This document shows, piece by piece, positions 2,024 to 23,092 of a DNA stretch of 42,419 bases. The notes under the pieces are model-generated. The model was not told where the DNA came from. It did no database searches and saw only the letters and a program-made list of their open reading frames with translations. How positions within the stretch are numbered: the first letter of the stretch is position 1; every line of letters starts with the position of its first letter. The stretch comes from Leptolyngbya sp. 'hensonii' (GTDB taxonomy: Bacteria; Cyanobacteriota; Cyanobacteriia; GCF-001939115), in the NCBI RefSeq assembly GCF_001939115.1, contig NZ_MQTZ01000004.1, positions 65,569 to 107,987 on the forward strand. Direction: 5' to 3'. Position numbers and translations under genes: made by a program.

Positions 2024-3181
2024 TCAAGTGTTGCTTAAGGATGCAGATGCTTGCTGATTGGGGCTGCTTTTGCTTTTTCGCAGTCTTTGCAAGGAATGCT
2101 CTAAGGCCAGTTCCACAAATGAGCTTAAGGAGTCGGCACGATCGGGTAGTTCCATCGTTTCCAAGTAGAACTGAACTGGCATAGCTAAACCCTTCCAGTA
2201 ACTATGGGTGTATTGCATCCACTTTCGTAATTTCGTGGGTAAGGAAAACTTCCCAGTCTCTATTTCTTCCTTGGTAACAATTAACCAGCTCTTGCGTCCA
2301 TTCTCCACGTATGCGAGACAGGTTACCTGATCATTCACGATCCAAAGCCGCATCATGGCAGTTTTCTTGAAGTTTTCTGACCTGGGTCCTCCCATATTCC
2401 ATTGCCCGTTAACAGTCATGAACGGAAGCCAGAGGAAAATTGCCAACTCATCCCGCTTGTTGTCCCAACCCAGCTCAGCGATCGGGTATTGTTTTGTCCG
2501 TTCAAATCGAGTCCATTTGCCATCAGGCGTTTCAGCAATCTTCAGCTTGTGGTTGCGGGCAAATTCATAGGTCTGATCACGGGTGCGAATAGCCCAATGC
2601 TTTTCCGCATCCGTGCATTTTCCTAACAAATTGACAAATGACCTGGGTGGATCAGGCAGGTCAAGATGGGGCAAAACTTCTGGAGCTGCTGGAATCTCAA
2701 CCTGGAGAACCTCTCCAGGCTCAGGCCACTGCCATAGCATGAATTTGAAACCGGCGTCCCACCTGATGATGCTATAGGTGAATAGAGTCAGGCCAAGCTT
2801 ATGGTATTTCAGTGTCAGTTCTGTCCGAGCACTGTAACTGGGACAGATGGTATAGAGTGCTATGGGTTGGCTGTAGTCAATCTGCTCATCAAAGGGTCTT
2901 TCGTCGATCAGTGCATCGAAGTAGGCAGTAATCTGTTCGACAACATGAGAATCCTGGGTGTTTTTTAACTCAATGATGACCAGTTCCTTGTTAGCTCCCC
3001 TGGCTAGGATGTCGCAGACCCCCTCTCTACAGTTATATTGACTCTTTAAGGGGGTAAGTCCCATCTGGGCCAGAACGGTATGCCAGAAGAACCATTCCAG
3101 GTGTCGCTCAGTCTCAAATTCGGCGACATCTCCATAGACGCGGAGCCTGAGGGTAGTAGGGTTACGATCGTGGTCTGACAT
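2024..3181 (-). CDS. PD-(D/E)XK nuclease-like protein (NucS/DUF91-like N-terminus)
   Basis: 385 residues. The N-terminal half has a restriction-endonuclease-fold signature: a conserved acidic residue in REGVCDILARG (about 52-62), then VIIELKN (about 68-74), the E-x-K strand, and a helix with Q-x-x-x-Y (EQITAYFDAL). This arrangement occurs in DUF91/NucS-type and other PD-(D/E)XK nucleases. The C-terminal half (about 190-360) is mixed, rich in Trp, Lys and Arg, and I could not assign it. The substrate is unknown. It sits alone between convergent and co-directional genes and is not visibly coupled to either. The nuclease fold is moderately certain and the family is not. Confidence 0.6.
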   Translation of the reverse strand: MSDHDRNPTTLRLRVYGDVAEFETERHLEWFFWHTVLAQMGLTPLKSQYNCREGVCDILARGANKELVIIELKNTQDSHVVEQITAYFDALIDERPFDEQIDYSQPIALYTICPSYSARTELTLKYHKLGLTLFTYSIIRWDAGFKFMLWQWPEPGEVLQVEIPAAPEVLPHLDLPDPPRSFVNLLGKCTDAEKHWAIRTRDQTYEFARNHKLKIAETPDGKWTRFERTKQYPIAELGWDNKRDELAIFLWLPFMTVNGQWNMGGPRSENFKKTAMMRLWIVNDQVTCLAYVENGRKSWLIVTKEEIETGKFSLPTKLRKWMQYTHSYWKGLAMPVQFYLETMELPDRADSLSSFVELALEHSLQRLRKSKSSPNQQASASLSNT

Positions 3182-3656: not shown

Positions 3657-4649
3657 CTAATCCGCTCCTAACACTAATAGTTTAATCTGCGTCAACTGCC
3701 GTCTCAGTTTGGCCCAATCCCGGAATGTCTGGGCCTTCTGCTTGTCCATGGCCGACAGAGATTGTAAGTACCCATTCGTATCGCCAAAGCCAAACCGATA
3801 ATCGACGGTGATCAGTTTCAAGCGCAGGGCCTCCCGCCTCGCCACCTCCTGACTCACCTGAAACTCTCGTCGGGTTTGGTCAAAATCCAACGCTTGGAGC
3901 AACACCTGCTCCCGAATCTTGGCCGCCAGTTCCCCCCGCTGCCGTTCCACTTCAGCGACCTTCACCTGCAAGTCCGCGATCGCAATCGTGCGTTGCTGAG
4001 CAGCAGCATCGCCCCCGATCGCATTCCGAAACAGGGGTAGACCAATGAGGGAGAGAACCTCGTTCACGCCCTGGAGTGGAGTCGTAAAGACATCTAAGAC
4101 ATTCTCCAGAAACCCCCGCTGCTGTTGCTGGCCTGTGGATGATGTGACGGTCTCCAGTTTCAGCCAGGATTGCACCAGCGGTTCAAACACCCCTAGCGCG
4201 ATCGTCTTCTGGTTATTAGCCCTGGCCTCCTCAATCTTGCTGTTGATCACCTCGATCCGACTGTCGATCGCTTGCAAGGCTTGAGACTTCTGAACCGCCA
4301 TCTCCTGCAACGACTTGATACAGGCTTCGGTGGCCTCTAGGCAGGGCAGTTCCCCCAGCATGGCCTTCCAGGCATCATCATTGATGCGAAGCTGGATGAG
4401 AGTGTCCAGCGAATCCCCCGCCGGGTTGAGCGGATTGGGGTTGGTCTGGGGACCGTTCTCGTCCAGAGTGTTCGTTGACTCGGTTTCGGTGGGAGTCGTC
4501 TCGACGGGAACGGAGGTCTGGGGTTTGGGTGGCTGGGGCTTTGGGGGTTGAGCCAGGACGGGACTGGTCAGGAGCCACAACCAGCACCAGCTCCACCATA
4601 AGATTCTGATCGCTCTGACCGGTAAACTTAATCCGCTGAACGTTGCCAT
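3657..4649 (-). CDS. secreted TolC-like coiled-coil protein, last gene of the envelope operon
   Basis: From the ATG at 4649 the protein opens with a clear signal peptide (IRILWWSWCWLWLLTSPVLA, then QPPKPQ). A proline/threonine-rich linker with two PPKPQ units follows, then a long helical region. The C-terminal part (QEVARREALRLKLITVDYRF, then YLQSLSAMDKQKAQTF...LRRQLTQIKLLVLG) has the heptad and loop pattern of TolC-type outer-membrane efflux proteins, so it may be a degenerate TolC half or a periplasmic helical barrel. The frame is open back to 4715, but the signal peptide places the start at MATFSGLS. Its first 272 nt overlap the 3' part of the lipoprotein gene in another frame. Exported location: fairly sure. 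TolC relationship: tentative. Confidence 0.65.
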   Translation of the reverse strand: MATFSGLSLPVRAIRILWWSWCWLWLLTSPVLAQPPKPQPPKPQTSVPVETTPTETESTNTLDENGPQTNPNPLNPAGDSLDTLIQLRINDDAWKAMLGELPCLEATEACIKSLQEMAVQKSQALQAIDSRIEVINSKIEEARANNQKTIALGVFEPLVQSWLKLETVTSSTGQQQQRGFLENVLDVFTTPLQGVNEVLSLIGLPLFRNAIGGDAAAQQRTIAIADLQVKVAEVERQRGELAAKIREQVLLQALDFDQTRREFQVSQEVARREALRLKLITVDYRFGFGDTNGYLQSLSAMDKQKAQTFRDWAKLRRQLTQIKLLVLGAD

Positions 4650-5463
4650 TGTAAGGGCTCCTGATTGCTGAGAGTAAGAGAAGTTGGGCATTGAGCTGCT
4701 GCATCTGGGCATCAAGCTGGGCCAGTTGGAAACTGCGTTCCCGCTCCTGGGCCTGCTGCCGTTGCACCTGGTCCTGGCGTTGCAGCTCCTGGGCCTGGAT
4801 GGAGATCGCCCGTTTGCTCAACTCCAGGGAATGCAGATACTCCTGGTACTGCCGCTCCTGTTGAGCCTGACCCAGTTGGGCTTGGGCCAGAGCCAGGTCC
4901 GCATTGGCCTGATCCACCTCCCGCTGGCGTTGGGCCAGCACCTCCTGCTCATGGGGAATCGTGGCCTCCGGGATTTCATTGGCCGGAAGGGTCTGGAGGA
5001 CATCCAGTTTCCGTTGTTGCTGGGTCAGGTTCCGTTCCGCTGCCTCCACCTTTAGCCTCACCCGATCCACCTCGGCTACTTCCTTCAGAAAGGATGGGGC
5101 AGGCAGAGCCGCCATCTCTGGAATTGTTCTAGGGGGAGGAGGTCCGGGGATAGGAGCCTTCAAGCGATCGACCTGCAACTGTAACTGTTTCTGCTGTCCT
5201 TCCAGTCGTTCCCGGTCGCGGGTGCGATCGGCCAGCATCTGCCCCTCCTGCACCCGGTCCCCCTCCCGCACTTTGAGATCTTCCGGAGCAGTTAGGGTTA
5301 GTTTTAACTTAAACGATCGGCCCCGTTGAGACGACTCTTCCCCCGTCACCAGTTGGCTTGCTGGCAGGGAAGCTGGTGGCTGCTGGGAAATCGCCTCTCC
5401 AGCACAGCCAGACAGCAAGAGCAGCAGTAGACAGAGAATTCCTTTGGACTTGGTGTATAGCAC
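4378..5463 (-). CDS. lipoprotein periplasmic adaptor (HlyD/membrane-fusion type)
   Basis: 361 residues. The N-terminus is a lipoprotein signal with lipobox LLSGC (Cys20). A lipoyl-like half (KLKLTLTAPEDLKVREGDRV, QEGQMLADR, about 53-80) is followed by a long coiled coil with Gln/Arg/Leu heptads (about 82-105 and 130-265). The second lipoyl half is SAIRSPYNGNVQRIKFTGQS (about 271-290). This order (lipoyl, hairpin, lipoyl) defines HlyD/AcrA-type adaptors linking inner-membrane machinery to a TolC-like partner. The normal fold ends near ELVLVV; the remaining roughly 63 residues are Pro/Ser/Arg rich and are encoded by the same DNA as the start of the next gene. It begins 8 nt after the YdjM-like gene, so it belongs to that operon. 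Confidence 0.75.
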   Translation of the reverse strand: MLYTKSKGILCLLLLLLSGCAGEAISQQPPASLPASQLVTGEESSQRGRSFKLKLTLTAPEDLKVREGDRVQEGQMLADRTRDRERLEGQQKQLQLQVDRLKAPIPGPPPPRTIPEMAALPAPSFLKEVAEVDRVRLKVEAAERNLTQQQRKLDVLQTLPANEIPEATIPHEQEVLAQRQREVDQANADLALAQAQLGQAQQERQYQEYLHSLELSKRAISIQAQELQRQDQVQRQQAQERERSFQLAQLDAQMQQLNAQLLLLSAIRSPYNGNVQRIKFTGQSDQNLMVELVLVVAPDQSRPGSTPKAPATQTPDLRSRRDDSHRNRVNEHSGRERSPDQPQSAQPGGGFAGHSHPASHQ

Positions 5464-5470
5464 GTTAAAT

Positions 5471-6493
5471 TCAACCCCTCACCTTGACGATCACCCGACC
5501 CGACAGAATCCAAAAATCCCGCAGCAGCCCCCGCACCTGCTCCGGTCGGGCATGACTTAGCTCCACCCGATTTCCCGTCGCCCGCAGAACCGGGTAAGTC
5601 TGGATCTCCAGGGGAATCTGCACCTCTTCCGTGTCATCCAGCAATAGGGACCCACTCACATCCCCATTGGGAGGCAGCCGCTTCACCCAATCCGATACCG
5701 CAATCTCGCGCAACGTCATCTCCTGCACCTGCAACGATAGCCGTTCCCCCAGCTGGGTTCTGATCCGGGTGGGTCGAATCTGGACATCAGCACCATTGCC
5801 AATCTTGTACAGCCGTCCCGTTCCCTGCTCCTCAGCCACCACATCTGAGGCTGTCGCTTCAATCACCGCAAAACTGCCCGTGATTCGCTGGGACGTGTGG
5901 GTGTGAATGCCCGATACCTCCACCACGATCGTGCGTTCACTGCCATACTTGCGAAACATATCCGCCGCCGTCTCACTGCCCCGCATAAAAAACAGTTCAA
6001 ACTGCTCCGTAATCCCCCCTGCTGAAATCAGATTCACCGACACGACACAGAGGAACAGGGAGACAGCCAGCACCCAGTACTCTGACGGAGACTTGCTCTC
6101 CAGCCTTGCCCTGGGATTCCCCGGAATCACCAGCCGCGCCGGAGAGGGATAAAACGCCGCTACCCCTGCCTTCGTAAAGGCATCACTCAACCAGCCACAG
6201 AAGTGCCCCAGCACCAGGGCCGCCCAGAAGTGCCAGTTTAGCCAGAGCAGCGGTGCCCCCAGTGCTGCCACCGCCCCCGTTGCCAGGAACGAGTGGGTGA
6301 TCGTGCGGTGGGGATAACGGGCCTCAATCCAGTGAGCGATCGGGTACAGTATCCGCCCCATGAAACTCTCAGTTGTGTCGATATCAGGAATTTGGGACCC
6401 GATCGCTGCCGTCAGCAACACAAACGGGTCCGCCGTCGCCAGGGCGATACTGGTCGTCGCTAGGGCGATACTGCAATGGGTCACACTCATCAT
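5471..6493 (-). CDS. YdjM/LexA-binding inner-membrane hydrolase family protein with extra C-terminal domain
   Basis: 340 residues. The N-terminal half carries the YdjM (DUF457) pattern of conserved His/Asp: THCSIALATTS, SQIPDIDTTES, HRTITHSFL and LGHFCGWLSDAFTKAGV, set within hydrophobic helices. These polar residues are thought to form a metal site, giving the label metal-dependent hydrolase. A further membrane segment (YWVLAVSLFLCVVSVNLI, about 138-155) is followed by a roughly 180-residue hydrophilic domain rich in beta strands (ITGSFAVIEATA, GNGADVQIRPTRIRTQLGERL) that I cannot assign and that is probably periplasmic. Its start overlaps the stop of the preceding small gene by 4 nt (ATGA), so translation is likely coupled. 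Confidence 0.75.
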   Translation of the reverse strand: MMSVTHCSIALATTSIALATADPFVLLTAAIGSQIPDIDTTESFMGRILYPIAHWIEARYPHRTITHSFLATGAVAALGAPLLWLNWHFWAALVLGHFCGWLSDAFTKAGVAAFYPSPARLVIPGNPRARLESKSPSEYWVLAVSLFLCVVSVNLISAGGITEQFELFFMRGSETAADMFRKYGSERTIVVEVSGIHTHTSQRITGSFAVIEATASDVVAEEQGTGRLYKIGNGADVQIRPTRIRTQLGERLSLQVQEMTLREIAVSDWVKRLPPNGDVSGSLLLDDTEEVQIPLEIQTYPVLRATGNRVELSHARPEQVRGLLRDFWILSGRVIVKVRG

Positions 6494-6711
6494 CCGGCAA
6501 TCCTCCCCACAACCTCCTGAAATGGCATACTGTTTCCCTCCCCATCAATGAGTTCCAACCCATAGTCACTGGGGCAATCCAGGTTCAAGTCCTGCACCTG
6601 ACAGGTGCAATAGAACTCTGCATGTCCCGTTCTACTCACCCACCACACATTCACCCACTGCTCGGGCGACAATGCATCCGCCTGGTCCGCCCACACCCCA
6701 AAGATGGTCAT
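6490..6711 (-). CDS. 73-residue hypothetical protein, coupled within the envelope operon
   Basis: Small acidic protein with several Trp and Cys residues (WVNVWWVSRTGHAEFYCTCQ, DLNLDCPSDYGLELIDG). No membrane segment or recognised domain. Its reality rests on architecture: its start overlaps the ATPase stop by 4 nt and its stop overlaps the YdjM-like start by 4 nt, so it is translated between two convincing genes. Two Cys in CTC plus one in DCP could bind metal or form disulphides, but that is speculation. Confidence 0.65.
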   Translation of the reverse strand: MTIFGVWADQADALSPEQWVNVWWVSRTGHAEFYCTCQVQDLNLDCPSDYGLELIDGEGNSMPFQEVVGRIAG

Positions 6712-7526
6712 AGTCGGGACCGCTTCCGATTCAGGGAGTAGTAGATCACCCGCAAGGCCACCGCCACCAGCGTCATCACTCCCCCCAGGATGTAGAGACT
6801 GCGATCCCCCAACCCCAACCCCACAAACCGGATCATGCCAATCATCGACACCCCCGCAATCAGAAACGGGGTGCCATCCACATACTGATGATGGTCCGTA
6901 CTCTGCGCCTCCCCTACCCCCAACAGGGCCTCCCGCACTACCCGCTTCGCCAGAGCTGGATTGTTCCCTGCCCGCTGCTGCAAGTCTGCAAACTGACCAG
7001 GGTTAAGCGTCATCCCCTGAGCCATTGCCTCCTGATACATCAGTGTCCGAATCTCATCATCTTTAAGAGGTTGCATTTCTATGCGCGGCATTTTTAAAAA
7101 AATATCTTTCGCCGGGGGAGCCGTGGCCAGCAGCAAAAGCAGCACCCCAGCCCGATGGCAGTCCTCCAGCCAATACCGCAGGGAAGCCGGGAAGCGATGG
7201 GCATCATCAATGATCATCAGGGTTTTGGGGTGGGGCAGATTCAGTAACAGTTCCTTCCGGAGCTGCTCTGCCGTCATCGCCTTAGGCCGTTCATCCTGCG
7301 TCTCGATCGGGATGCCCAACTGCTCACAGATACTGATCAGCGTCTCCTTGGCCGACCCGCTATAGTTGGCGATCGCCACCTGATACTTCATGTCTTTCAG
7401 CAGGTCCGCCACCTTCTGACCCAGCCAGCTCTTACCCGCCCCCGGTTCCCCTAAAACGAGTACAGACTGCTTCGCCTGCAAAGCTGCACTGACCTGCTCA
7501 ATTTCAGCGACCCGCAGTTCCATCAC
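6708..7526 (-). CDS. ExeA/TniB-like AAA ATPase with C-terminal membrane anchor
   Basis: 272 residues. Walker A is GEPGAGKSW (about 27-35), Walker B LMIIDDAHR (about 104-112), followed by the sensor-like LLLATAPPAKD. This is the AAA_22/ExeA-GspA/TniB type of P-loop ATPase. Residues 180-215 look like the small helical lid (LNPGQFADLQQRAGNNPALAKRV). The C-terminus carries two hydrophobic segments (about 222-237 and 245-263) and a basic end, so it is probably anchored in the inner membrane with the ATPase in the cytoplasm. ExeA/GspA use such an ATPase to help place outer-membrane pores; TniB-type proteins serve transposition. The envelope genes downstream favour the former. Two start codons in tandem (7526, 7523) overlap the previous stop. 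Confidence 0.75.
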   Translation of the reverse strand: MMELRVAEIEQVSAALQAKQSVLVLGEPGAGKSWLGQKVADLLKDMKYQVAIANYSGSAKETLISICEQLGIPIETQDERPKAMTAEQLRKELLLNLPHPKTLMIIDDAHRFPASLRYWLEDCHRAGVLLLLLATAPPAKDIFLKMPRIEMQPLKDDEIRTLMYQEAMAQGMTLNPGQFADLQQRAGNNPALAKRVVREALLGVGEAQSTDHHQYVDGTPFLIAGVSMIGMIRFVGLGLGDRSLYILGGVMTLVAVALRVIYYSLNRKRSRL

Positions 7527-8017
7527 GCCGCTGCACTCAGGCCCCGTTGCTTCTTCCAGTTGGCAATAGTCTTGCGGCTACAGGCTTCACCCGTGGACAG
7601 TTCCACATACCTGAGCAGTTGGGGATAGGTTCGGAGTCCCTGCTCCCAGGCTGCATCCAGCAAAGACTCCACCTGCACCCGACGATTCGGAACAGAGGCC
7701 CCGATCGTGCCTGTCTCTGGCAGCGCTGTTGGTAACCCCACCTCCAGGGCTGCATCCTCTCCTGCTACTGTCCCGATCGAGACTACAACTGCCTGAAGAT
7801 CGGTTGCTTCCGGAGCAGGCTGTTCCGATGTATCCTCGATCGGCACGGCTGCCACCGTCACCACGGCTGCCGCTGCTGGTGCCTCTCCCAGAGCCGGTCG
7901 CTTCTCCTGGACCGATCGGAGCGACTCCCGCCAGTCCACCATTGTCTGAAGCAATGCCCGAATCAGGAGTAGACCCAGGCGATTGGCTACGATCGCCAGT
8001 TCCTTGAATTTGTTCAT
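7523..8017 (-). CDS. helix-turn-helix protein with a long Ala/Val/Pro-rich linker
   Basis: 164 residues. The N-terminal 35 residues form a helix (LAIVANRLGLLLIRALLQTMVDW) that could bind a membrane or partner. The middle (about 45-105) is low-complexity Ala/Val/Glu/Pro. The C-terminus (RVQVESLLDAAWEQGL...YVELSTGEACSRKTIANWKKQRGL) reads as a helix-turn-helix, with SRKTIANWKK as a plausible recognition helix. Its stop overlaps the ATPase start, so the two products probably work together, as adaptor and ATPase pairs do. Another minus-frame ORF over the same DNA is rejected because it lacks this domain. Confidence 0.65.
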   Translation of the reverse strand: MNKFKELAIVANRLGLLLIRALLQTMVDWRESLRSVQEKRPALGEAPAAAAVVTVAAVPIEDTSEQPAPEATDLQAVVVSIGTVAGEDAALEVGLPTALPETGTIGASVPNRRVQVESLLDAAWEQGLRTYPQLLRYVELSTGEACSRKTIANWKKQRGLSAAA

Positions 8018-8080
8018 ACCGTTTCATTCACTCGTCTGCCCACTGGTACTGACCAACCGTTGAGCCAGAACAGGTAGAAA

Positions 8081-8305
8081 CTACGGAAACGTTCTCAGAG
8101 AATAGACCCGTTTCCCCGCTTCTAGGCGAGACTGGAGCTGACCATCAATGCAGAGATTTCGAGTTTGCCGTCGCACCTGGGTATAGGAGAGCCCTGACCT
8201 GGCCATGAAGTCTTCACGGGTCAGTTCCTCACCGGGTTGAATGTGTTGGAGGAGGAGCGATCGGGTTTGCTGACCCTGGTCCGTGATGCGATAGAGGATA
8301 TGCAT
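8081..8305 (-). CDS. small winged-helix DNA-binding protein, first gene of the envelope operon
   Basis: 74 residues. The sequence shows a compact wHTH: LLLQHIQPGEELTREDFMARSG (helices 1-2), LSYTQVRRQTRNLCIDG (recognition helix) and LQSRLEAGKRVYSL (wing). No other domain. It is the first gene of the minus-strand run down to 3657, so an autoregulator of that operon is the simplest role. The next gene starts 63 nt away. The fold is fairly sure; the role is inferred from position. Confidence 0.65.
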   Translation of the reverse strand: MHILYRITDQGQQTRSLLLQHIQPGEELTREDFMARSGLSYTQVRRQTRNLCIDGQLQSRLEAGKRVYSLRTFP

Positions 8306-9021: not shown

Positions 9022-9175
9022 GCAGGAGTTTCAGAAAAATTTTCGTGATTTCACCAAAACATCCCAGGGAACACCCGTTTATGGGTAAGTTTGCGAAACT
9101 GAATTGAGGCAGGAGTGGGAGTTCAGCCGTTTCATTTGCAGGTGTCCATCCATCATTTTCGGGCAAGTTTTGATC

Positions 9176-9757
9176 ATGTCCACTGCTCCACCCCTTAAAA
9201 CGCCCAATTGCCAAGTGCGAACTCGTGAGCATTTGCTACCCCAGGAGGTTGAGGCAATGCTCAAAGCGGCTAGAAATGTGGGACGACATGGCAACCGAGA
9301 TGCAACCTTGATCTTGATTGCTTATCGTCATGGGTTGCGGGTTTCTGAACTGGTGGCACTGCGCTGGGAACAAGTAGACTTCAACGGTGGCACGATCTAC
9401 ATCAACCGGTTGAAGCAGGGGGGCAGTTCGATTCATCCCCTCCGAGGACCCGAGTTGCGATCTCTGCGGCAATTGCAACGAGACTATCCAGATTCCCCTT
9501 ATTTGTTGATTTCAGAACGAGGAGCTGCAATGGCAGAAGACACTGCCAGAGGCATTATTGAACGGGCGGGGAAGTTGGCAGAGATTCCCTTCCCAGTTCA
9601 TCCGCATATGTTGCGTCATGCTTGTGGGTTCTACCTCGCTTCTAAAGGACACGACACCAGAGCCATTCAAGCTTATCTCGGACACAAAAATATTCAGCAC
9701 ACCGTGCGTTATACCGAATTAGCACCAAGACGCTTCAAGGACTTCTGGGTGGATTGA
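9176..9757 (+). CDS. small tyrosine recombinase (FimB/FimE-sized)
   Basis: From the ATG at 9176 the product is 193 residues, nearly all catalytic domain, like the FimB/FimE invertases and small Xer-like enzymes. Catalytic residues: first Arg in YRHGLRVSELVALRW, Lys in NRLKQGGSSIH, the HxxR box in HPHMLRHACG, His in YLGHKNIQHT and the nucleophile Tyr in VRYTEL. The frame is open upstream to 9104, but that stretch (SRFICRCPSIIFG) is not protein-like. It is centred between two arms of a 38-bp inverted repeat and has no excisionase or cargo beside it. It could invert or excise the DNA between the repeats, or simply be a resident of a small element. Confidence 0.88.
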   Translation: MSTAPPLKTPNCQVRTREHLLPQEVEAMLKAARNVGRHGNRDATLILIAYRHGLRVSELVALRWEQVDFNGGTIYINRLKQGGSSIHPLRGPELRSLRQLQRDYPDSPYLLISERGAAMAEDTARGIIERAGKLAEIPFPVHPHMLRHACGFYLASKGHDTRAIQAYLGHKNIQHTVRYTELAPRRFKDFWVD

Positions 9758-10314: not shown

Positions 10315-12129
10315 ATGATCGCACCTGCCTATAAACCAGTTCCTCAACGTTTTGAATTTGTTCGGGAATGGGATGATCAATTTCTTGCCCTATTTCCTCA
10401 CCGAGGCGATTACCTTTGGGCAGAGCACCCAGAGCCAAAGAAAAGACCAGAGTGGAAGACAGAAAGCACTCACCTGCTCACTGATCGCATGATCCAGAAA
10501 GGCGAGTATCTGTATGGTGTCCGCTTCGGCAGTATTACGCAGTACCTCATGGCTGACGTTGATGCTCGCAGTGCTTACCACCCTAACAAGGATCCATTAG
10601 CGATCGCCCGACTTCTGGAGGCACTTGAACCACTAGGGTTGGTCGAGTGCATTATTGTCAGAAGTTCGGATAGCGGTGGGTTGCACCTGTACTTCCCGTT
10701 TGAAGAAGCAGTTCTGTCCTGGGCGATCGCCTTGGTAGCCAAGTCTCTGCTGGAAGGAAAGGGCTTCAAACTACGAGGCGGACAACTTGAAATCTTCCCC
10801 AACCCAAAACCTGCAACTCAATCGCCCATCAACTACAACGGCCACCGTTTGCCACTCCAACAGGGATCCTATCTGCTGAACAAGGACTGGGAGCCAATTT
10901 TCTCCTCTCACCACGCCTTTGTTCAACAATGGGAGTTTGCTGCACGCCGGAACCAGGTGTCTTCCAATAAGGTAGAGCGGCTTGCCAAATCATTGCAGCG
11001 CAAGAGCTACGGAAAGAGGATCAGAACCCGTGGGCGCAAGTATTTGACTGATTTGAACAACGATATTGAGCCTGGCTGGACAAGCTCAGGACAAACCCAA
11101 TTTTTGCTTGGGAAGATCGCAAATCGGGAACGGGTGTTTTATCACGCTTTGTTCGGAGGTGAGCCTTTAGAAGGGCAAGCCTTAGCTGACCAAATTGCTG
11201 AAGTCGCTCAATCTCTCCCCGGGTATCTGGACTTCTGCGGGCACCAGCATGAGATCCATAAGAAGGCAGCAGAGTGGGCACGAGCGGCAGAAGTTCGCTA
11301 CTACCCATACCCTTCTACCAGCAAGAAACTGATGCAGCAGCCCTTAGAAGAACATTCAGGTGACAGCAAACCATCCTGGAACGAACAACAGTCTCAGGCA
11401 GCCAAAGACCGGATCAGACGTGCGGTCGCTGATCAACTGGAAAAGGGTACACTGCCAGCCCAAAAATCAGCGCGTCAGAGGGTACTCAGAACCTATGGAG
11501 TTGGTAACGTCACTTTAAACAAATATCGCGACTTGTGGGATCCTGAACACCTGAAACCCTTGCTGGATGAGGAATACCACCCTCTTGAAGGAAGTTTGGG
11601 CAATTCCGAAAGCTTGAAACCCTTGCTGGATGAGGAATACCACCCTACTAATACCAATAAGCTTATCTCCGACCCTGCTTCTGCACCCTCAGTGCAGGAA
11701 GCAGGTGGAGTTTTTGATCTAGCTGTTGGGGGGTCTGGGGGGTTTTCCACAGGTGAACCTGCTAGAGAGAATGCTCCCTCTCCTTTGGATCCCTCTCACA
11801 CTGGTGAGGCTGAAGTTTCCTTGACTGGACCTGCGTTGGTTCGGCAGATTCTGGCTCAAATTGCTACCAAGAGCCAGCAGTCTAAACAAACTCGTTCTAA
11901 TGATCTGCCTCCTCCTGATGAGCATTATTTCCGTTCAAAGAGCAAACAACTGGAATTGCTGGGTGAGCCGTTATCATCGAGTTCCTCCCCAAATCCAAGT
12001 TCACCACCTAATGTTCTGCTAAATGGTTCTGCTGTGGCGGAGCCTGATTCAGGAGATTCTGAGAACGGTTCTGCGGTAGCTGCCGATTCTAATCCAGAGG
12101 ATATCGGGGATGTGATCGCGCAGGTTTAA
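10315..12129 (+). CDS. archaeo-eukaryotic-type primase (AEP), plasmid or phage-like replication protein
   Basis: 604 residues. The N-terminal third has the three AEP motifs: metal-binding Asp pair in LMADVDARS (D81, D83), nucleotide-binding SSDSGGLHLYF (117-127) and third acidic strand GGQLEIFPN (155-163). These enzymes make primers and often extend them on plasmids, phages and TOTE-type elements. The middle (about 225-345) is helical and basic. From about 430 the protein is low-complexity Ser/Pro/Glu, with a 32-bp direct repeat giving two LKPLLDEEYHP units. No helicase domain is visible. The TAA at 12127 is in frame with 56 more codons that look conserved. ParAB lie a few kb downstream, so this is probably the replication protein of a plasmid or plasmid-like island. 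Confidence 0.75.
   Translation: MIAPAYKPVPQRFEFVREWDDQFLALFPHRGDYLWAEHPEPKKRPEWKTESTHLLTDRMIQKGEYLYGVRFGSITQYLMADVDARSAYHPNKDPLAIARLLEALEPLGLVECIIVRSSDSGGLHLYFPFEEAVLSWAIALVAKSLLEGKGFKLRGGQLEIFPNPKPATQSPINYNGHRLPLQQGSYLLNKDWEPIFSSHHAFVQQWEFAARRNQVSSNKVERLAKSLQRKSYGKRIRTRGRKYLTDLNNDIEPGWTSSGQTQFLLGKIANRERVFYHALFGGEPLEGQALADQIAEVAQSLPGYLDFCGHQHEIHKKAAEWARAAEVRYYPYPSTSKKLMQQPLEEHSGDSKPSWNEQQSQAAKDRIRRAVADQLEKGTLPAQKSARQRVLRTYGVGNVTLNKYRDLWDPEHLKPLLDEEYHPLEGSLGNSESLKPLLDEEYHPTNTNKLISDPASAPSVQEAGGVFDLAVGGSGGFSTGEPARENAPSPLDPSHTGEAEVSLTGPALVRQILAQIATKSQQSKQTRSNDLPPPDEHYFRSKSKQLELLGEPLSSSSSPNPSSPPNVLLNGSAVAEPDSGDSENGSAVAADSNPEDIGDVIAQV
11552..11646 (+). repeat. two 32-bp direct repeats in the primase gene
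   Basis: Identical 32-base copies at 11552-11583 and 11615-11646, offset by 63 bp (21 codons, so in frame). Each encodes KPLLDEEYHP in the low-complexity C-terminal linker. This suggests a recent slippage or duplication that lengthened the linker. Confidence 0.9.
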
Positions 12130-12300
12130 GTGCAGTTTCAATGCCTTGGCTGGACTCCTGCACAGGCGAAAAGTTGGATCGCAGAACAGTTTGGAGGAAG
12201 AAGCCGGTGGCAATTAACTGACGCAGAACTGGTTGACCTGCTGAGGAAGCTTCGAGACTGTGCATCCTTGGAAAAACCAGTAGCCGGAGATTATAGTTGA
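12130..12300 (+). CDS. 56-residue tail in frame after the primase stop (coupled small ORF or severed C-terminus)
   Basis: The codons after the primase TAA stay open in the same frame: GTG directly at 12130, then 55 codons to TGA at 12300. The peptide includes CLGWTPAQAKSWIAEQFGGR and SRWQLTDAELVDLLRKL. I recognise this as the LGWT...GRRSRxxLTDxELxxxL tail that recurs at the C-terminus of cyanobacterial proteins, though I cannot name the domain. It is either a tail cut off by a single nonsense change, a readthrough extension, or a separate peptide made by restart at the GTG touching the stop. The start codon has no independent ribosome site. It was too short for routine gene calling. Confidence 0.6.
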   Translation: MQFQCLGWTPAQAKSWIAEQFGGRSRWQLTDAELVDLLRKLRDCASLEKPVAGDYS

Positions 12301-12369
12301 TTCGTAGCGTTACTTACCTCAGAACAGTTTCTGTATTGATAGCGCAACTCAACTTGAAAGGGGATTGAA

Positions 12370-12696
12370 ATGACTTTTGCTGAATCTCGTACTGACACTG
12401 TTCCAGTTCAGCTTCCCAATGGAGCGATCGTCAAAGTTGAGGTGTCGAAAACTGGCCGGGAGGATGTCAGTTTTGATCCAAAGCAATTTCAGCCAGTGGC
12501 AGATGCGATCGAGGGTGTAGTGCAGATGATTGCAACACCAATCCAAAAAGTAAGACCTAAAAAGGCGACGGTGAAATTTGGTATGGAATTGGCGATCGAG
12601 TCTGGGCAATTGACGGCAATCATTGTCAAAGGTTCTGGCAAGGCTAATCTGGAAATTACATTGGAATGGGAAGCCCCACCTAAGCTTGAATCATGA
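12370..12696 (+). CDS. Trypco1-domain (CU044_2847-like) partner of the trypsin-NACHT protein
   Basis: 108 residues spanning the single trypsin-co-occurring domain 1: PVQLPNGAIVKVEVSKTGRE at the start, a helical middle (FQPVADAIEGVVQMI) and the strand pair VKFGMELAIESGQLTAIIVK...NLEITLEW. Trypco1 proteins are found beside trypsin-like proteases in bacterial conflict systems and are thought to be an accessory or substrate of the protease. The ATG follows a good ribosome site (AAAGGGGAT). The stop overlaps the next start as ATGA, so the pair is translationally coupled. No catalytic residues are expected or seen. Confidence 0.85.
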   Translation: MTFAESRTDTVPVQLPNGAIVKVEVSKTGREDVSFDPKQFQPVADAIEGVVQMIATPIQKVRPKKATVKFGMELAIESGQLTAIIVKGSGKANLEITLEWEAPPKLES

Positions 12697-15600
12697 GCCA
12701 GCTAGAGGATCTGCTACAACAATGCACAGTGAGGTTGACTCTTCCTGGTCGTTTGGGTTGGGGAACAGGCTTCTTTGTGGCTCCCGGATGGATTCTCACT
12801 TGTGCTCATGTGGTTCAAGAAGCAAGAGATGAATCTGTTCAGGTGCGTTGGCAGAAACAGGAGAACTGGGCGCAAACGACAGTGGAGCGGTTGTTAGCTG
12901 ACCCGCTTGATTTAGCCTTACTACGGGTAATAGGTTCTACCGAGGCAAATCAACCTTGCGTGTACTTTGATGAGGAGATTCGCTCCCGCGATCCGCTGTA
13001 TTTATTTGGCTATCCTGACCAGGACTTTCCCAACGGCTGCCCAGTAACATTCAACTGCGAAGGGCTAACAGGGGATGAATCAGCACTAATTAAATTTGCT
13101 TTAGGGCAGGTGCGTCCTGGGATGAGTGGAGCGCCGTTGCTGAATCAGCGGACGGGCAAGGTATGTGGAATGGTGAAATTTACGCGCGATCGCTCCTTTG
13201 ATCTGGGCGGTGGTGCCATTCCGACACAGATGATTCTGGAGCAGTTGCCTGAATTGCGATCGCTTCAGCAGACGTTTCATGGGCACGATCTGCGCTGGGT
13301 AAACCTAATTACATCGCCTGGACCTGACTTTCAGCCCTATAGAGAGGCGGTGATTTACCACTATTCTCAACAGCGTCACCTGTACACTCCAACCGATGCC
13401 CTGTTGTCCTTGGAAGCCCGATCAGTGAAGCGGCAAGCTCAAGACAATGGACGTGAACAGCCGACCCAAGAAACGGTTGAGCAATTTCCAGTGCTGGAGG
13501 GGTTGCGGAAGTATGCGCTTGGAAACCATCGGGAGCACGTGTTGTTGGCAGGGCGACCGGGTTCAGGGAAATCGACCACGTTGCGACAGTTGGCTGTGTC
13601 CTTGGCAGAGGAAGGTCAAGTTCCGGTGCTGGTGCAATTGAAGGGCGATCTCCCAGTACTAGAGGCAATCGCTAGTGAGCTAGAGAAAGGTGATCTATAC
13701 GACTTGGAGCTAAAGGAGATTAAGCGGTTACTTCGACAACAGCAGTTTGTTTTGCTGCTGGATGGAGTGAATGAAATCCCCAATGAGTCCTTGCGCAGAT
13801 CACTCATCCAATTTCGGCAGGATAACCTAACAGTGCCCATGATCTTCACCACGCGAGATTTTCTAGGAGGGGACTTGGGCATTGGCAAGCGGCTGGAGAT
13901 GAAGCCCTTGTCTGAGGAACAAATGCGGGAATTTATCAGCAAGTATTTGCCGGAACAAATGCGGGAATTTATCAGCAAGTACTTGCCGGAACAGGGCGAT
14001 CTCCTATTGGATCAATTGCTCAATCGCCTGCGGGAATTGGCAGAAACACCTTTGCTGTTGAAACTGATGTGTGATGTGGTTGGTCTAGAGATCAACCACA
14101 TTCCCCAAAATCAAGGGGAATTATTCCAGTGGTTCGATCGAGATTACAAGCGCATTAAAAAAGAAATTGAATACGTCTCTGTCTCCGAGAATTTCTGGGA
14201 ATTCAAGTCAGAGATTCTCCGGTATTTGGCATTTTCCATGATTCAAGGAGAGGTGCAAAGTACTGCTCTCCAGAAACAGCTGGAACCCTGGCTAACCATC
14301 CCCAATAGTCGAGCCGCAGGAATTTTGGAAACTTGGCTCCATCAACGGGGAACTGTCGATGCCCCCACGAAGGCAAAGCTGTGGCTCAAAGATTTATGCA
14401 ACCATGATCTTCTTCAGAATGCCGCCAAGCCGGAAGAAATTGAATTTCATCATCAGTTATTCCAGGAATATTATGCGGCAGAATACCTCCTAGATCGATT
14501 GCCAAGTCTGACTGATGAGCAACTGAAGTGGGATTACCTCAACTACTTGAAGTGGACGGAGCCAATAGCGTTGATGCTGGCTCTAGTGAATAGTGAGGTG
14601 CAGGCGCTGCGAGTAGTGCAGCTGGCGCTAGATGTAGATTTGGTGCTGGGGGCAAAACTAGCGGGTGCAGTGAAGCCAATGTTTCAGGAACAAACCGTCA
14701 AATATGTAGAGAAATTAGCAGTACCGGCTTGGTTGAAAAGTCAACTCCTGAGAGAATCGCGATCTCATTATGCGGTTTCTGCCTTATTGGAATTGTTAGA
14801 CCATGCTGATGCTGATGTCTTTATGACAGTAGCGATGATAATAGGCGAGTTTATTCCAGATAGCATTATAGTGGAGTTTTTTTCGAAGGTATTAGACGAA
14901 TGTGATATTCATGGAAGTATGTCAGAAGCATTAAACAATGCTCTTGTAGATGATTTTACAGGTGATTTTACTGATTTTTGGACTCTTTTCGAAACCATAG
15001 AACAATTTGATCCTAAACTTCTTCTTCGCATAGCAACATTGGTAGTAAATCAATTTGAAATGAGCCAAGATAGCTTCTTGGAACTTATCATTCCCCACAT
15101 TTTTAGGCTGATAAAAAATAATGCGATTGATGTAACTTCGGTAAAAATTGTAGAAAAGATGATGAGCCAAATCAGTTTAAACGCTGTCCACTCCGGTCGT
15201 GTCGAATTAATCGAAAGTCTAGGGAAACAAATGGAAGAGAAAGTACTAAACACAATCGATTTAGGCACTTTTCATATGCTTGCCAAACTACTGGAAAGTG
15301 TCAATCCTGATCAGGATTGGGGTTTAGAAAATCTGGCAACGAAGTTTATATCAGAGACTTCTGCTTCTGCTGCTTTACCTAAACTGTTTGAAGAGCCTGG
15401 TTCTCTTATGAGTTATTCAACAATAGACACACGAGTTAGTATTGGCTCAAGTAATTCTATTGATGAATGGATTAAGCTTCTTAGTAGTGTTCAAATTGCT
15501 GTACGTTGGGATGCTGCACAAGTATTAGTCAAGATAGCAGAGAAGCATCCAAATAAGATAGCTAGCTATCTTTCCTATTTCCTTACTCTCATTCCTACCC

Positions 15601-16166
15601 TGTCTGGCAAACAAGCTTTAAAGGTGATCACAGCTACCCAAGTCAACTGCAAGTTTTACAACTATGAAATCTTTCAAGCCCATCTAGCAGCACAGCGAAC
15701 CGAGCGCCAAACTCACCCCAATGGCGATTCAAACGCCATAACTATAAAAACTTTAGAGAGTTTAACTATCATGAGTGACAAAGCACCAATCTTCAATCAG
15801 CAACATGCAACTATTGGCGTGAACTATGCAGCTGAAGGTAGCACCATAGAATTTACTCAGCAAACCAGTTCTTCAGAGCAAACCTTTGAGATTTTGCTCA
15901 CTGACTATCAGCAATTTATTGAGCAACTTCAACAGAAATATCCCACCTTGGCAGACCCAACCACCGTACCTCAAATTATTGAAGTCGAGGCAAAACTCAT
16001 CAAAGCCCAGGATCACCAGCGGTGGCAAAACTTCATCAACCTCAAACGGCTGTGGAATGGCGGCAAAAAAGCAGGTATCAAAGTTGGCGAACATTTTGCC
16101 GAAAACAATGTCTGGGCAAAAGGCGCGATCGCTTTTCTCGAAGGTGTTAGCGAAGATGGGAAATAA
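12693..16166 (+). CDS. trypsin-NACHT (STAND) defence protein
   Basis: 1157 residues. Residues 1-200 are a trypsin-like protease with the full triad: His39 in LTCAHVV, Asp73 in DPLDLALL, Ser145 in RPGMSGAP. A NACHT NTPase follows: Walker A GRPGSGKST (287-295), Walker B FVLLLDGVNE (352-361), and the FHHQLFQEYYAAEYLL helix typical of NACHT ends. Residues about 690-1000 are helical, HEAT-like and visibly AT-richer at DNA level, the usual place for a target-sensing domain. The last 130 residues (from MSDKAPIFNQQ) form a separate module ending in LKRLWNGGKKAGIKVGEHF. Family knowledge: such STAND proteins sense a phage product and then activate the effector, here a protease. A 36-bp tandem duplication lies just after the NTPase core. 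Confidence 0.9.
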   Translation: MSQLEDLLQQCTVRLTLPGRLGWGTGFFVAPGWILTCAHVVQEARDESVQVRWQKQENWAQTTVERLLADPLDLALLRVIGSTEANQPCVYFDEEIRSRDPLYLFGYPDQDFPNGCPVTFNCEGLTGDESALIKFALGQVRPGMSGAPLLNQRTGKVCGMVKFTRDRSFDLGGGAIPTQMILEQLPELRSLQQTFHGHDLRWVNLITSPGPDFQPYREAVIYHYSQQRHLYTPTDALLSLEARSVKRQAQDNGREQPTQETVEQFPVLEGLRKYALGNHREHVLLAGRPGSGKSTTLRQLAVSLAEEGQVPVLVQLKGDLPVLEAIASELEKGDLYDLELKEIKRLLRQQQFVLLLDGVNEIPNESLRRSLIQFRQDNLTVPMIFTTRDFLGGDLGIGKRLEMKPLSEEQMREFISKYLPEQMREFISKYLPEQGDLLLDQLLNRLRELAETPLLLKLMCDVVGLEINHIPQNQGELFQWFDRDYKRIKKEIEYVSVSENFWEFKSEILRYLAFSMIQGEVQSTALQKQLEPWLTIPNSRAAGILETWLHQRGTVDAPTKAKLWLKDLCNHDLLQNAAKPEEIEFHHQLFQEYYAAEYLLDRLPSLTDEQLKWDYLNYLKWTEPIALMLALVNSEVQALRVVQLALDVDLVLGAKLAGAVKPMFQEQTVKYVEKLAVPAWLKSQLLRESRSHYAVSALLELLDHADADVFMTVAMIIGEFIPDSIIVEFFSKVLDECDIHGSMSEALNNALVDDFTGDFTDFWTLFETIEQFDPKLLLRIATLVVNQFEMSQDSFLELIIPHIFRLIKNNAIDVTSVKIVEKMMSQISLNAVHSGRVELIESLGKQMEEKVLNTIDLGTFHMLAKLLESVNPDQDWGLENLATKFISETSASAALPKLFEEPGSLMSYSTIDTRVSIGSSNSIDEWIKLLSSVQIAVRWDAAQVLVKIAEKHPNKIASYLSYFLTLIPTLSGKQALKVITATQVNCKFYNYEIFQAHLAAQRTERQTHPNGDSNAITIKTLESLTIMSDKAPIFNQQHATIGVNYAAEGSTIEFTQQTSSSEQTFEILLTDYQQFIEQLQQKYPTLADPTTVPQIIEVEAKLIKAQDHQRWQNFINLKRLWNGGKKAGIKVGEHFAENNVWAKGAIAFLEGVSEDGK
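13917..13988 (+). repeat. 36-bp tandem duplication inside the NACHT gene
   Basis: Two adjacent 36-base units (13917-13952, 13953-13988) differ at one synonymous base (TAT/TAC) and repeat the 12 residues EQMREFISKYLP in frame. The near identity shows a recent duplication. The single third-position difference shows it is not an assembly artefact of an exact repeat. Confidence 0.93.
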
Positions 16167-16235: not shown

Positions 16236-16814
16236 CTATAGACGTTGAAGTTCCAGCAGAATTGCTGCGTAGTCTTCATTTTTCAACTCATTGCTGTGCT
16301 TGTTTGTGACTTCCCGGATAAAAGCTGTTATTCTTTCGGGCTTCCATTTCAGTCGCTTGGTGTAACGTGCGATGACCTGATCGACCAGTTGGTGAGGAAT
16401 AGGATGATCAGCCATCACGTCTTTAAGGGGAGTTGGCTCTTCTAAAAAGGTTGTCAGGACTGGGCGAAGATACCAATCCGCTTGGACCTCATCAAAGGCT
16501 GGGGGTGCTGCTGTGAAGTAAAGTGCATCTAGCTCGTCATCAACCTCCAGCCAGCCAATCATCCTTGCAAGGAATAGCCACTCTTCCTCATCAGCTTCGA
16601 TCGATCTGATACGTTCCGGCTCGATTTCAGCTAAGGGATTGTAGACACCGGCATACCAGGCTAAAGCTTGTTTTTCACAATTAACTTTCCAGTCTTCCTC
16701 TGGAGAAAAACGGGAGCCTGCTTCTACATCGCACTGACGCACCTTAGATGCTTGGGATGCTGAAGGCTTTTTAGCACGGCGCTTAGGCTTTGTAGCTCCA
16801 AATCCTCTTGACAT
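16236..16814 (-). CDS. hypothetical protein divergent from parA
   Basis: From the ATG at 16814 the product is 192 residues, with a basic N-terminus (SRGFGATKPKRRAKKPSAS), an acidic middle (AEIEPERIRSIEADEEEWL, DDELDALYF) and a helical C-terminus (PERITAFIREVTNKHSNE). No motif I recognise. The frame is open to 16847, but the extra 11 residues would reach into the parA control region. It shares a 179-bp divergent promoter region with parA, so it may be a plasmid maintenance or regulatory accessory. Confidence 0.6.
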   Translation of the reverse strand: MSRGFGATKPKRRAKKPSASQASKVRQCDVEAGSRFSPEEDWKVNCEKQALAWYAGVYNPLAEIEPERIRSIEADEEEWLFLARMIGWLEVDDELDALYFTAAPPAFDEVQADWYLRPVLTTFLEEPTPLKDVMADHPIPHQLVDQVIARYTKRLKWKPERITAFIREVTNKHSNELKNEDYAAILLELQRL

Positions 16815-16993
16815 GGTTTCTTCCAAGAACTGCCGACTGGGAAACAATGCTACTACCAGGTAATAGCAAGCTCTCTATTTTGATTACCTCTGTCTCTATC
16901 ATGGCATGTCGTTCAAAATGTCATGCGTTATGCATGTCGCTCGACTATGATTTTTGTGGGATCAGATTTCTCAAAAGGGTATGTGATAGCGCA
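16815..16993. promoter_or_regulatory. divergent control region of parAB with repeated GCATGTCG words
   Basis: 179 bp between the divergent gene and parA. The word GCATGTCG occurs at 16904-16911 and again at 16932-16939, and CATGC-GTTAT-GCATG (16922-16936) is a 5-bp inverted repeat with a 5-nt spacer overlapping the second copy. Grouped short direct and inverted repeats just upstream of parA are typical of ParA/ParB operators or parS-like sites. Confidence 0.5.
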
Positions 16994-17716
16994 ATGGCTC
17001 AAACTCGGATAGGCGTGGCTGCTCGAAAAGGTGGGGTAGGGAAAACGTCGATTGCCTGCGGGCTTGGATCTGTATTGGCGAACCAGGGTAAGCGAGTGCT
17101 GGTTGTTGACTTGGATCCACAATCTAATGCTGCTTACGTGTTGGGAACGGATCCGACTGCACCGGGAACATCTGACCTTTTGTCTGGTGGCACACCTGTG
17201 GCGTTAGAGGCAGCACCAGGACTGTGTGTACTACCGGGTGGACCAGATTTGTCTGGGCACGCTATTCAGTCTCTAGATCCAGAGGATTTAGCGGATGCAG
17301 TAGCAGCTATGGACTATGACGTACTAATCTTTGACTGTCCGCCAGGTGTGGAATATCTGGAGCGGTTGGGACTAGTGGCAGCAGATATTGCCCTGGTTTG
17401 CACCGATGCTCATCCTTTGGCGGTTATGGGTGCTGGACGGGTCATTAATGAGTTGAAGCTACGGCAGCAGAAGGGGCGGCGAGGTGCGAAGCGGTGGGGG
17501 CTGGCACTCAGCCGCATTGATTTGCGGCGCTCAATGGATCAATCGCTCGACCGACAGTTGGAAACTACCTATCCAACGATTGATCGTTTTATTGTTCACC
17601 AGGACTCTGCAGTCTCCTGGGCAGGGGCGGAAAGAGTTCCGCTGATGCAATATGATCCAAACTGTAAGGCTGCAAAAGATTTACAAGCGATCGCGGACTG
17701 GGTATTCAATGGCTAG
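16994..17716 (+). CDS. parA: ParA-family partition ATPase
   Basis: From the ATG at 16994 the product is 240 residues. It has a deviant Walker A (RKGGVGKTS, about 11-19), the ParA signature VVDLDPQSN (about 38-46) and a Walker B-like strand in YDVLIFDCPPG (about 106-116). The frame extends upstream to 16808, but that part is the control region. ParA proteins of this short type lack an N-terminal DNA-binding domain and position cargo DNA by ATP-dependent nucleoid binding. It overlaps parB by 8 nt. Its length and single-domain form fit a small plasmid-type ParA. Confidence 0.92.
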   Translation: MAQTRIGVAARKGGVGKTSIACGLGSVLANQGKRVLVVDLDPQSNAAYVLGTDPTAPGTSDLLSGGTPVALEAAPGLCVLPGGPDLSGHAIQSLDPEDLADAVAAMDYDVLIFDCPPGVEYLERLGLVAADIALVCTDAHPLAVMGAGRVINELKLRQQKGRRGAKRWGLALSRIDLRRSMDQSLDRQLETTYPTIDRFIVHQDSAVSWAGAERVPLMQYDPNCKAAKDLQAIADWVFNG

Positions 17717-18530
17717 AAGACGAAATAGTGCAGATTTGTTTGCTGAAGCGACTGCCACAGCAGATGCTATTCATGAGCAGGACCAGGCGGTTGCTGCCAG
17801 GTCTGAGCAGGAGCGAGTTCAAAAGACAAAACTGCCGTTGGATCAGATTCGAGCGAGAGAAACCGATACTCGCCCCTTAGACCCTCAGCATGTGGCGGCT
17901 CTAGCTGAGTCGATTGCGGCTTTAGGGCTGATTGAACCTCTAGTAGTAGATACAAAGGGGGTGCTGCTGGCGGGTGGACATCGGTTGGCAGCGCTTCAGG
18001 CACTACAGGAAACCAATCCAGAGGTTTACAACCAGCAGTTTTCAGATGGGCAAATCCAGGTTCACATGCTGGCGTTTGATGCTGAACAGGATCCAGAGCG
18101 GGCACTTCAAGTTGAGTTGGCAGAGAACGAAAAGAGGGTAAACTATACCCGCGACCAGATTGAGCGGTTGGCTGAACGATTGCGATCGCTCAACTACCGC
18201 GATGTGCGGGGTCGCCCGAAGGAAGGGGAGAAAGCATTAGGTCCTGCCCTTGCTGTGGCGATCGGGGTTTCGGCTCGTTATGTCCGTAAAGTCTTGAGTG
18301 AACAGAAGCAAGATGGGCAGGATCAGAAAAATAGGAACTCAGTTCCTATTTTCCAAAAGTTGAAGCTTTTGAAGAAAATCGAAGCTGCTTTGGAAGAATT
18401 GAGTGAACTGCCAGAGTCGGAGCAATCTGGACGATCGGAGAAAGCTTTACTCAAGGCACTACCCGCTTTCTTGTCCAATGTAAAAGCCTCTGCTAAGGAT
18501 ATCGAAATCCTGATTCGACAGCAGAAGTAG
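17709..18530 (+). CDS. parB: ParB-family partition/nuclease-fold protein
   Basis: 273 residues from the ATG at 17709, which lies inside the parA 3' end. The N-terminal ParB domain shows IRARETDTRPLDPQHVAALA (about 49-68), ESIAALGLIEPLVV (about 69-82) and the nucleotide-binding box LLAGGHRLAALQAL (about 87-100). The helix-turn-helix follows (ALAVAIGVSARYVRKVL, about 178-194). The C-terminus is helical and probably dimerises (LKLLKKIEAALEELSEL). It binds centromere-like sites and hands the replicon to ParA. The upstream frame to 17652 is rejected because it repeats parA DNA. Confidence 0.92.
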   Translation: MARRRNSADLFAEATATADAIHEQDQAVAARSEQERVQKTKLPLDQIRARETDTRPLDPQHVAALAESIAALGLIEPLVVDTKGVLLAGGHRLAALQALQETNPEVYNQQFSDGQIQVHMLAFDAEQDPERALQVELAENEKRVNYTRDQIERLAERLRSLNYRDVRGRPKEGEKALGPALAVAIGVSARYVRKVLSEQKQDGQDQKNRNSVPIFQKLKLLKKIEAALEELSELPESEQSGRSEKALLKALPAFLSNVKASAKDIEILIRQQK

Positions 18531-22405: not shown

Positions 22406-22442
22406 TGCAAACGCAGATAAATGAGGATGAGAGGGCAAAGAT

Positions 22443-22856: not shown

Positions 22857-23092
22857 TTGCCAGCCCGATAAGCCTCAATTTCAGCGGCAATTTCTGCTTC
22901 GGTGATGGTTTGGGCTTGAGGAAGGGCTTGGGTCTCCTTCAACAGCGCTTTGAAGGCTTGAATGTGCTCTTGACGCTGTGGCTTCAAAACAATCACTTTA
23001 ACTTGAATGCCTTCTGCGAATGCAGATTGATAGGCTGCCGGAATCTCAATCATTCCATTTTTGATTTCTGTCTGAAACTCTACAGCTTCCAT
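22853..23092 (-). CDS. AbrB-like antitoxin of the PIN pair
   Basis: 79 residues. The N-terminus reads as a swapped-hairpin AbrB-type DNA-binding fold (FQTEIKNGMIEIPAAYQSAF, GIQVKVIVLK). The C-terminal helical part (ITEAEIAAEIEAYRAGK) resembles the toxin-wrapping tail of such antitoxins. A strong AAGGAGG ribosome site precedes the ATG by about 9 nt, so this gene can be translated well on its own. Probably autoregulated with the toxin. Identification is mainly by fold pattern and position. Confidence 0.8.
   Translation of the reverse strand: MEAVEFQTEIKNGMIEIPAAYQSAFAEGIQVKVIVLKPQRQEHIQAFKALLKETQALPQAQTITEAEIAAEIEAYRAGK

Follow-up and report, generated by a model that had tools for sequence, protein, structure and literature searches.

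Tripartite exporters of the HlyD/TolC type (type I secretion, MacAB-TolC) combine an ABC, RND or MFS transporter with an HlyD-type adaptor and an outer-membrane factor of two repeats, while type IV secretion, of type MPF_C in cyanobacteria, serves conjugation. In Streptomyces TraB transfer of double-stranded DNA and in archaeal Ced import, a motor of the FtsK/HerA superfamily takes DNA across the envelope without a relaxase. Here we describe a seven-gene operon of Leptolyngbya sp. 'hensonii' that shares features with these systems. It lies in a stretch of 42,419 nucleotides of contig NZ_MQTZ01000004.1 (positions 65,569 to 107,987; contig C4 below), called the window throughout. The operon encodes an AAA_22 ATPase (B), a YdjM-family membrane protein (C), an HlyD-like adaptor (E) and a helical, exported TolC-like protein (F), together with three minor genes (g1, g2 and g4). 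Associated families are a conserved upstream protein (A), a HerA/TrwB-like motor (D), a secreted repeat protein (G) and an SNase (N). We tentatively favour, at somewhat short of an even chance, the view that the set is an element-encoded trans-envelope machine whose cargo would most likely be the element's own DNA, that is, a relaxase-free plasmid-transfer apparatus.

As in tripartite export, a candidate HlyD-like adaptor is encoded with a TolC/OEP-related exported protein. The differences are that the inner-membrane pair consists of an AAA ATPase and a YdjM protein, not an ABC, RND or MFS transporter; that the outer-membrane factor apparently has one repeat here and two there; and that the set includes a DNA motor in most cyanobacterial relatives and DNA-binding domains in some. 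The operon proteins gave no ABC, RND or MFS transporter beyond sub-threshold matches to ATP-binding-domain models (B) and adaptor models (E), and a type I secretion system or RND pump was rejected for that reason.

The likeness to type IV secretion lies in the plasmid location and in D of the relatives, which matches TrwB-type coupling proteins, whereas the operon proteins have no VirB8/9/10-type matches and a relaxase is usually off the system's replicon. In 19 genomes searched for the relaxase families PF01076 and PF03432 (other relaxase families were not searched), none was found on contig C4. Only G064:C2 (open reading frame, ORF, of 255 amino acids, aa) and G300:C3 (175 aa ORF) hold a relaxase together with the system, and the relaxase of the Leptolyngbya genome itself is on contig C43. 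The VirB4 model TIGR00929, in which cyanobacterial VirB4 may score low, was matched above its cut-off in 0 of the 19 genomes; sub-threshold VirB4-like ORFs of about 900-1000 aa are on other contigs, except a 913 aa ORF on G167:C5. A known type IV secretion or conjugation locus was rejected on these grounds.

The resemblance to TraB, drawn from its description alone, and to Ced is that of an FtsK/HerA-superfamily motor acting without a relaxase; for Ced, CedD/CedB scores are far below cut-off and no shared partner proteins were seen. ExeA/GspA shares with B an AAA_22-type ATPase with membrane segments. The Pfam search of B, however, gave only AAA_22 and related ATPase models, with no match to a peptidoglycan-binding domain, and the operon has no secretin partner; ExeA/GspA was rejected, and the 'ExeA-like' label of a preliminary description of this DNA holds only in the generic sense of a membrane-anchored AAA_22 ATPase. 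Against PADLOC 2023, C, E and F gave no match up to E 0.01 and B a marginal one only, and known anti-phage systems were rejected for want of a strong match to the core proteins. No published account of this gene set was found among the open-access papers searched (subscription papers were not covered). The composition matches no described system found here, as the preliminary description had surmised.

The operon and its conservation in cyanobacteria

We searched for B in 386 cyanobacterial genomes drawn evenly across the phylum, and found it in 28 genomes and in 19 of 143 genera. The 34 places comprise the window, 26 loci that were fetched, and 7 weak matches (E 1.4e-4 to 1e-3) that were left out. 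The 26 loci were labelled with profiles built from sequences gathered in this analysis. Because the neighbourhood stretches are of limited length and a number of contigs break off early, genes may be scored as absent too often. A genome-contig scan with the window's own B gave no relative.

Protein A (about 170-300 aa) precedes B in 21 of the 26 loci. C stands beside B at full length in 19 (one of them fused) and as fragments in 3 more, an adjacency that, judged from these loci, exceeds chance. E is present in 18 (one fused) and F in 13. D occupies its place in the order in 15, with L051 and L057 having it as two separate ORFs; the complete order B-C-D-E-F is found in 12. Less frequent are G, in 9 loci (one a fragment) and often convergent downstream, and N, in 7. 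Gene distances are correlated (r 0.73-0.96), which partly mirrors host relatedness and is no proof of a complex. In L055 a single ORF of 755 aa (11067-13334) joins the ATPase, YdjM and HlyD-like parts as a B-C-E fusion; this copy is probably rearranged or reduced. When the window is compared with L045, divergence is greatest at third codon positions in each of the four genes they share, as expected under purifying selection. In pSYSX (L004), tblastn finds two places for the Synechocystis PCC 6803 locus, which a passage of PMC10899382 puts within a 24 kb tandem duplication, hence two copies in the strain.

The motor D of the relatives is about 360 aa long, and all 16 aligned members match TrwB_AAD_bind and HerA. 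In PADLOC it matches mad8 (2.9e-22) and DndH (1.4e-20), and in NCBIfam CedD (4.7e-11, far under the cut-off). D of L003 (13699-15159) and L038 (3729-5147) has a segment of about 110 aa inserted in the motor domain. Pfam identifies GIY-YIG in 1 of the 16 aligned members (1.1e-7), and the L003 gene is annotated as GIY-YIG in its record.

The seven ORFs (Table 1) are tightly packed on the minus strand from 8305 to 3657. Four-base-pair overlaps join g2 to B, B to g4 and g4 to C, C and E are 7 bp apart, and E and F overlap by about 270 bp. The start of F is most likely the ATG at 4649, directly ahead of the signal-peptide-like stretch, rather than the TTG at 4715. The seven-gene same-strand operon of the preliminary description is real and coherent, but its widely conserved core is four genes, B, C, E and F. 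No full-length homologues of g1, g2 or g4 occur in the 26 sampled loci. These three are lineage-specific, save for one weak match of g1 to a 110 aa ORF in L084 and for the C-terminal domain of g2. This domain, about 50 residues and helix-turn-helix-like (HTH-like) by inspection, is fused onto the N-terminus of E in four relatives (L003, L037, L038 and L039), and in Synechococcus elongatus it is a separate gene upstream of B.

Table 1. Positions of the operon genes and of associated genes in the window (or on contig C4 where stated)
Feature	Length (aa)	Position	Strand	Match or basis
g1, possible winged-helix regulator, outside conserved core	74	8081..8305	-	PHROG MarR 0.0017, weak
g2, C-terminal domain recurs	164	7523..8017	-	no Pfam match even at E 5
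B, AAA_22 ATPase	272	6708..7526	-	Pfam AAA_22 3.5e-12, above cut-off; Walker motifs by inspection
g4, orphan ORF	73	6490..6711	-	4-bp overlap with both neighbours; no homologue in sampled loci
C, YdjM-family membrane protein	340	5471..6493	-	Pfam YdjM (PF04307) 3.7e-21
E, HlyD/MFP-like adaptor	361	4378..5463	-	TIGR01843 (type_I_hlyD) 6.1e-9; family alignment
F, exported helical protein	330	3657..4649	-	overlaps end of E; signal-peptide-like start
Tyrosine recombinase near operon		9104..9757	+	Phage_integrase 1.9e-40
ParA-type and ParB-like genes, element backbone		16808..18530	+	ParA: AAA_31 4.4e-24; ParB-like by inspection, no Pfam match
G homologue, just left of window		C4 64061-64699		1.1e-56

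By hydropathy, B has two C-terminal membrane segments. C, whose YdjM assignment had already been proposed, scores 75.8 bits against a cut-off of 29 and keeps the metal-type residues of the family; H6, D37, D39, H62, H67 and D104 are invariant in its alignment. Its AlphaFold2 (AF2) model (pLDDT 83.5) shows membrane helices followed by a beta-rich C-terminal domain. This domain is most simply placed in the periplasm, because an HlyD-like segment continues the same chain beyond it in two lineages. A fold search with the model returned nothing at E 0.001 or below; it included a match to a TrmB domain over about 80 residues at probability 1.0 and another, spanning 159 columns of the alignment, to a viral protein of 145 residues.

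E has a lipobox-like LLSGC near its N-terminus, read by eye, and a profile search of PDB with E gave nothing at 0.01; the adaptor part of one Thermus relative is annotated as HlyD family. A relative of F matches OEP above cut-off (3.5e-5), and 6 of 16 aligned F members match it at E up to 0.1. The AF2 model of F (pLDDT 68) has helices at 123-163, 215-285 and 291-327, the 71-residue helix being flanked by others. Because its length and modelled secondary structure fit one repeat, F is probably a single OEP (half-TolC) repeat; by the same two measures it does not fit the two repeats of tripartite outer-membrane factors. Foldseek returned several outer-membrane factor chains at probability 0.98-1.0, every one with E above 0.1.

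Related operons on plasmids of other phyla

A search of 72,556 plasmids with the ATPase matched 48 records, of which 46 are typed non-mobilizable; its matches outside cyanobacteria were weak but led to informative loci. On its own this is a weak sign, because most cyanobacterial plasmids lack a relaxase anyway, according to a passage of PMC8600333. Cyanobacterial genome loci and plasmid records are not independent (G125:C4 and pNLP3, for example), and their counts are not added. OEP-like and HlyD-like labels outside cyanobacteria rest on Pfam, annotation and inspection; the cyanobacterial profiles for A, D, E, F and G had no match in the 8 non-cyanobacterial regions tested.

In plasmids of Methylobacter, Allochromatium and Nitrosococcus, C follows B; the two Nitrosococcus plasmids viewed each have two small genes in between. 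An exported OEP-like protein directly precedes B in three of the four gammaproteobacterial plasmids viewed. A scan of named genomes found 27 gamma-type B loci, one of them in a metagenome-assembled genome labelled Verrucomicrobia; an F-like gene is present in 23 and C in 16, some of the misses being contig ends.

C is found on 10 Thermus plasmid records. The three viewed have an operon of B, an OEP protein, and a C whose chain runs on into an HlyD-like segment; an SNase adjoins the operon or lies in its vicinity, and ParA is close. In one record the C-HlyD fusion is split, and the second piece is labelled HlyD family by NCBI. The OEP protein scanned in one record is 237 aa long with a single OEP match (1.4e-9, profile 92-187). 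In Desulfocapsa, genes for a tyrosine recombinase, an OEP-like protein, B and C overlap, and an SNase is also on the plasmid. A plasmid from Fusobacteria carries an OEP protein (1.8e-4, 21.8 of 22 bits), B and C, plus ParA and SNase.

In Bacteroidota, a tyrosine recombinase is fused to B in five plasmid records (L090 21387-22904, L093, L097, L099 and L100), and a Thiospirochaeta record holds part of such a fusion; all six are typed non-mobilizable. A PDB comparison of the Spirosoma protein supports the recombinase part (3.1e-16), and profile matches support the B part in five. C adjoins the fusion or is close to it, in Flammeovirga only as an annotated piece of 127 aa. The cyanobacterial and gamma-type loci bear out the expectation that the genes are kept together elsewhere, and, judged by sequence, altered versions of the apparatus are found on plasmids from several bacterial phyla.

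A possible envelope conduit for plasmid DNA

Family identities, synteny and fusions are properties read from the sequences; from them we infer assembly, ATP-driven transport, DNA as cargo and transfer as purpose. On the cytoplasmic face, B would drive the membrane protein C or gate through it. The C-terminal domain of C would dock the adaptor E, whose coiled-coil hairpin would meet a ring of F subunits in the outer membrane, each with one TolC-like repeat. DNA-binding proteins would engage the cargo, presumed to be the element's own DNA, and the HerA/TrwB-like motor D would feed it in most cyanobacterial copies. An export-type conduit of E and F with B and C is the more secure part of this proposal, the identity of the cargo the less secure. 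The wider proposal is of a relaxase-free transfer system, present in related forms in several diderm phyla, with DNA driven through an HlyD adaptor and a ring of half-TolC subunits by an inner-membrane engine of AAA ATPase and YdjM; taken as a whole it is doubtful.

An envelope conduit that handles plasmid DNA is favoured because fusions tie the membrane engine both to the adaptor (B-C-E in L055, C-E in Thermus) and to DNA (HTH-like domain with E, tyrosine recombinase with B). Further support comes from the conserved cyanobacterial order with its correlated gene distances, from the HerA/coupling-protein character of D and its GIY-YIG-like insertion in two members, from the single-repeat OEP-like gene found with B and C in Thermus, gammaproteobacteria, Desulfocapsa and the fusobacterium, from the SNase and secreted G family near the operon on the same contig, and from the absence of an above-threshold ABC, RND or MFS pump among the operon proteins. 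Our confidence stays limited because the role in DNA handling is drawn from relatives and fusions, the window has no motor D, and function is predicted only.

A number of observations weigh against this proposal. No D was found in the window or elsewhere on contig C4; in the operon only 7 bp separate C and E, and this copy may be a reduced variant. A D hidden elsewhere in the genome was considered and rejected, as a search returned a single 22-bit match and nothing convincing. D is also missing in the relatives L045, L084 and L085, and its closest relatives include HerA proteins of defence or restriction, with DptH the best in PDB (1.6e-21). The TIGR01843 match of E is only 35 bits, far below the curated 208.65. 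F of the window has no Pfam match of its own, its alignment by VIA-align reaches Z of about 8 for TolC/OprM and likewise for BAR domains and SMC coils, and a PDB search with a profile built from F-like proteins outside cyanobacteria (A8) found only coiled-coil-type proteins. By profile, no E was found beside the gamma-type B-C pairs and no E or F in Spirosoma.

The same envelope assembly might instead carry a protein or small molecule, for example the secreted G or the SNase, with the DNA-binding parts regulating it or anchoring the plasmid. HlyD and TolC-like parts do normally export proteins or drugs, G is often the convergent downstream gene and is also on this contig, and D is dispensable. 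We nevertheless judge this unlikely: G and SNase each carry a signal-like segment at the N-terminus, an ABC, RND or MFS engine is missing from the operon, the DNA motor lies within it in 15 of the 26 loci, and parts of the machine are fused to DNA-binding and recombinase domains. Those recombinase-B fusions are also what speaks for plasmid maintenance, in which B and C would anchor the plasmid at the membrane and couple it to a tyrosine recombinase for dimer resolution or segregation. FtsK-XerCD offers the parallel of a membrane ATPase physically joined to a tyrosine recombinase, as on the Bacteroidota plasmids, although B is of the AAA_22 type, does not resemble FtsK and is accompanied by YdjM. 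The recombinase that overlaps the Desulfocapsa operon fits maintenance, as do ParA near the genes on Thermus, Spirosoma, Flavobacterium and Fusobacteria plasmids and a 14.4 kb Flavobacterium plasmid with few recognisable genes beyond Rep, ParA, recombinase-B and C. It leaves the adaptor, the exported OEP-like protein and the secreted nuclease without explanation, and we regard it as quite unlikely.

Cutting DNA needs no adaptor/OEP conduit, and this counts against a defence or superinfection-exclusion complex that would attack incoming DNA at the envelope, as do the PADLOC results for the core proteins and the lack of D here. In its favour are the resemblance of D to DptH/DndH and mad8, the GIY-YIG insertion in D, the secreted SNase nearby, and an island of PADLOC defence genes within the same element; on balance such a complex is improbable.

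If the proposed DNA transfer holds, plasmids now typed non-mobilizable would be transmissible, and the module recurring on them would be a testable route for their movement: the apparatus may be how plasmids without known transfer machinery move DNA. Failing that, it would be a tripartite exporter of a new kind, one that does not use an ABC, RND or MFS pump as its power source. Since pSYSX of Synechocystis PCC 6803 and plasmids of Thermus thermophilus carry versions of it, tests are feasible in tractable laboratory strains.

The probable integrated element and its neighbouring genes

The operon probably belongs to an integrated element that also carries recombinases and ParA, on a contig that is probably chromosomal. 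Integration is proposed because C4 also carries chromosome-type ORFs, resembling gltB, gltD, ndhD and a topoisomerase (labels by inspection, no family search). No terminal overlap and no tRNA was found on the contig; the chromosome-like ORFs and lack of terminal overlap led us to reject C4 as a plasmid. The preliminary description had suggested a machine of a mobile element; the element is supported, and would be an integrated one. Its set comprises B, C, E, F, G and N. Two SNase genes are located left of the window on C4, within 11 kb of the operon, out of three in the whole 5.94 Mb genome.

Within the window, one strand-coherent block (19724-30382) contains PADLOC PLD_Helicase, DUF1156_MTase, DUF3780 and DUF499, with HmaA/B/C as weaker relatives, and is a candidate defence island. 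A 1157 aa protein (12693-16166) has a trypsin-like N-terminal domain and a STAND/NACHT-type NTPase. Downstream of the operon (2024-3181) is a 385 aa protein with a match to a NucS-like C-terminal domain (4.5e-7). On contig C43 of the same genome, at about 257-274 kb, a PF03432 relaxase lies about 16 kb from a sub-threshold VirB4-like ORF of 1008 aa, and the pair is a candidate for a separate conjugative element.

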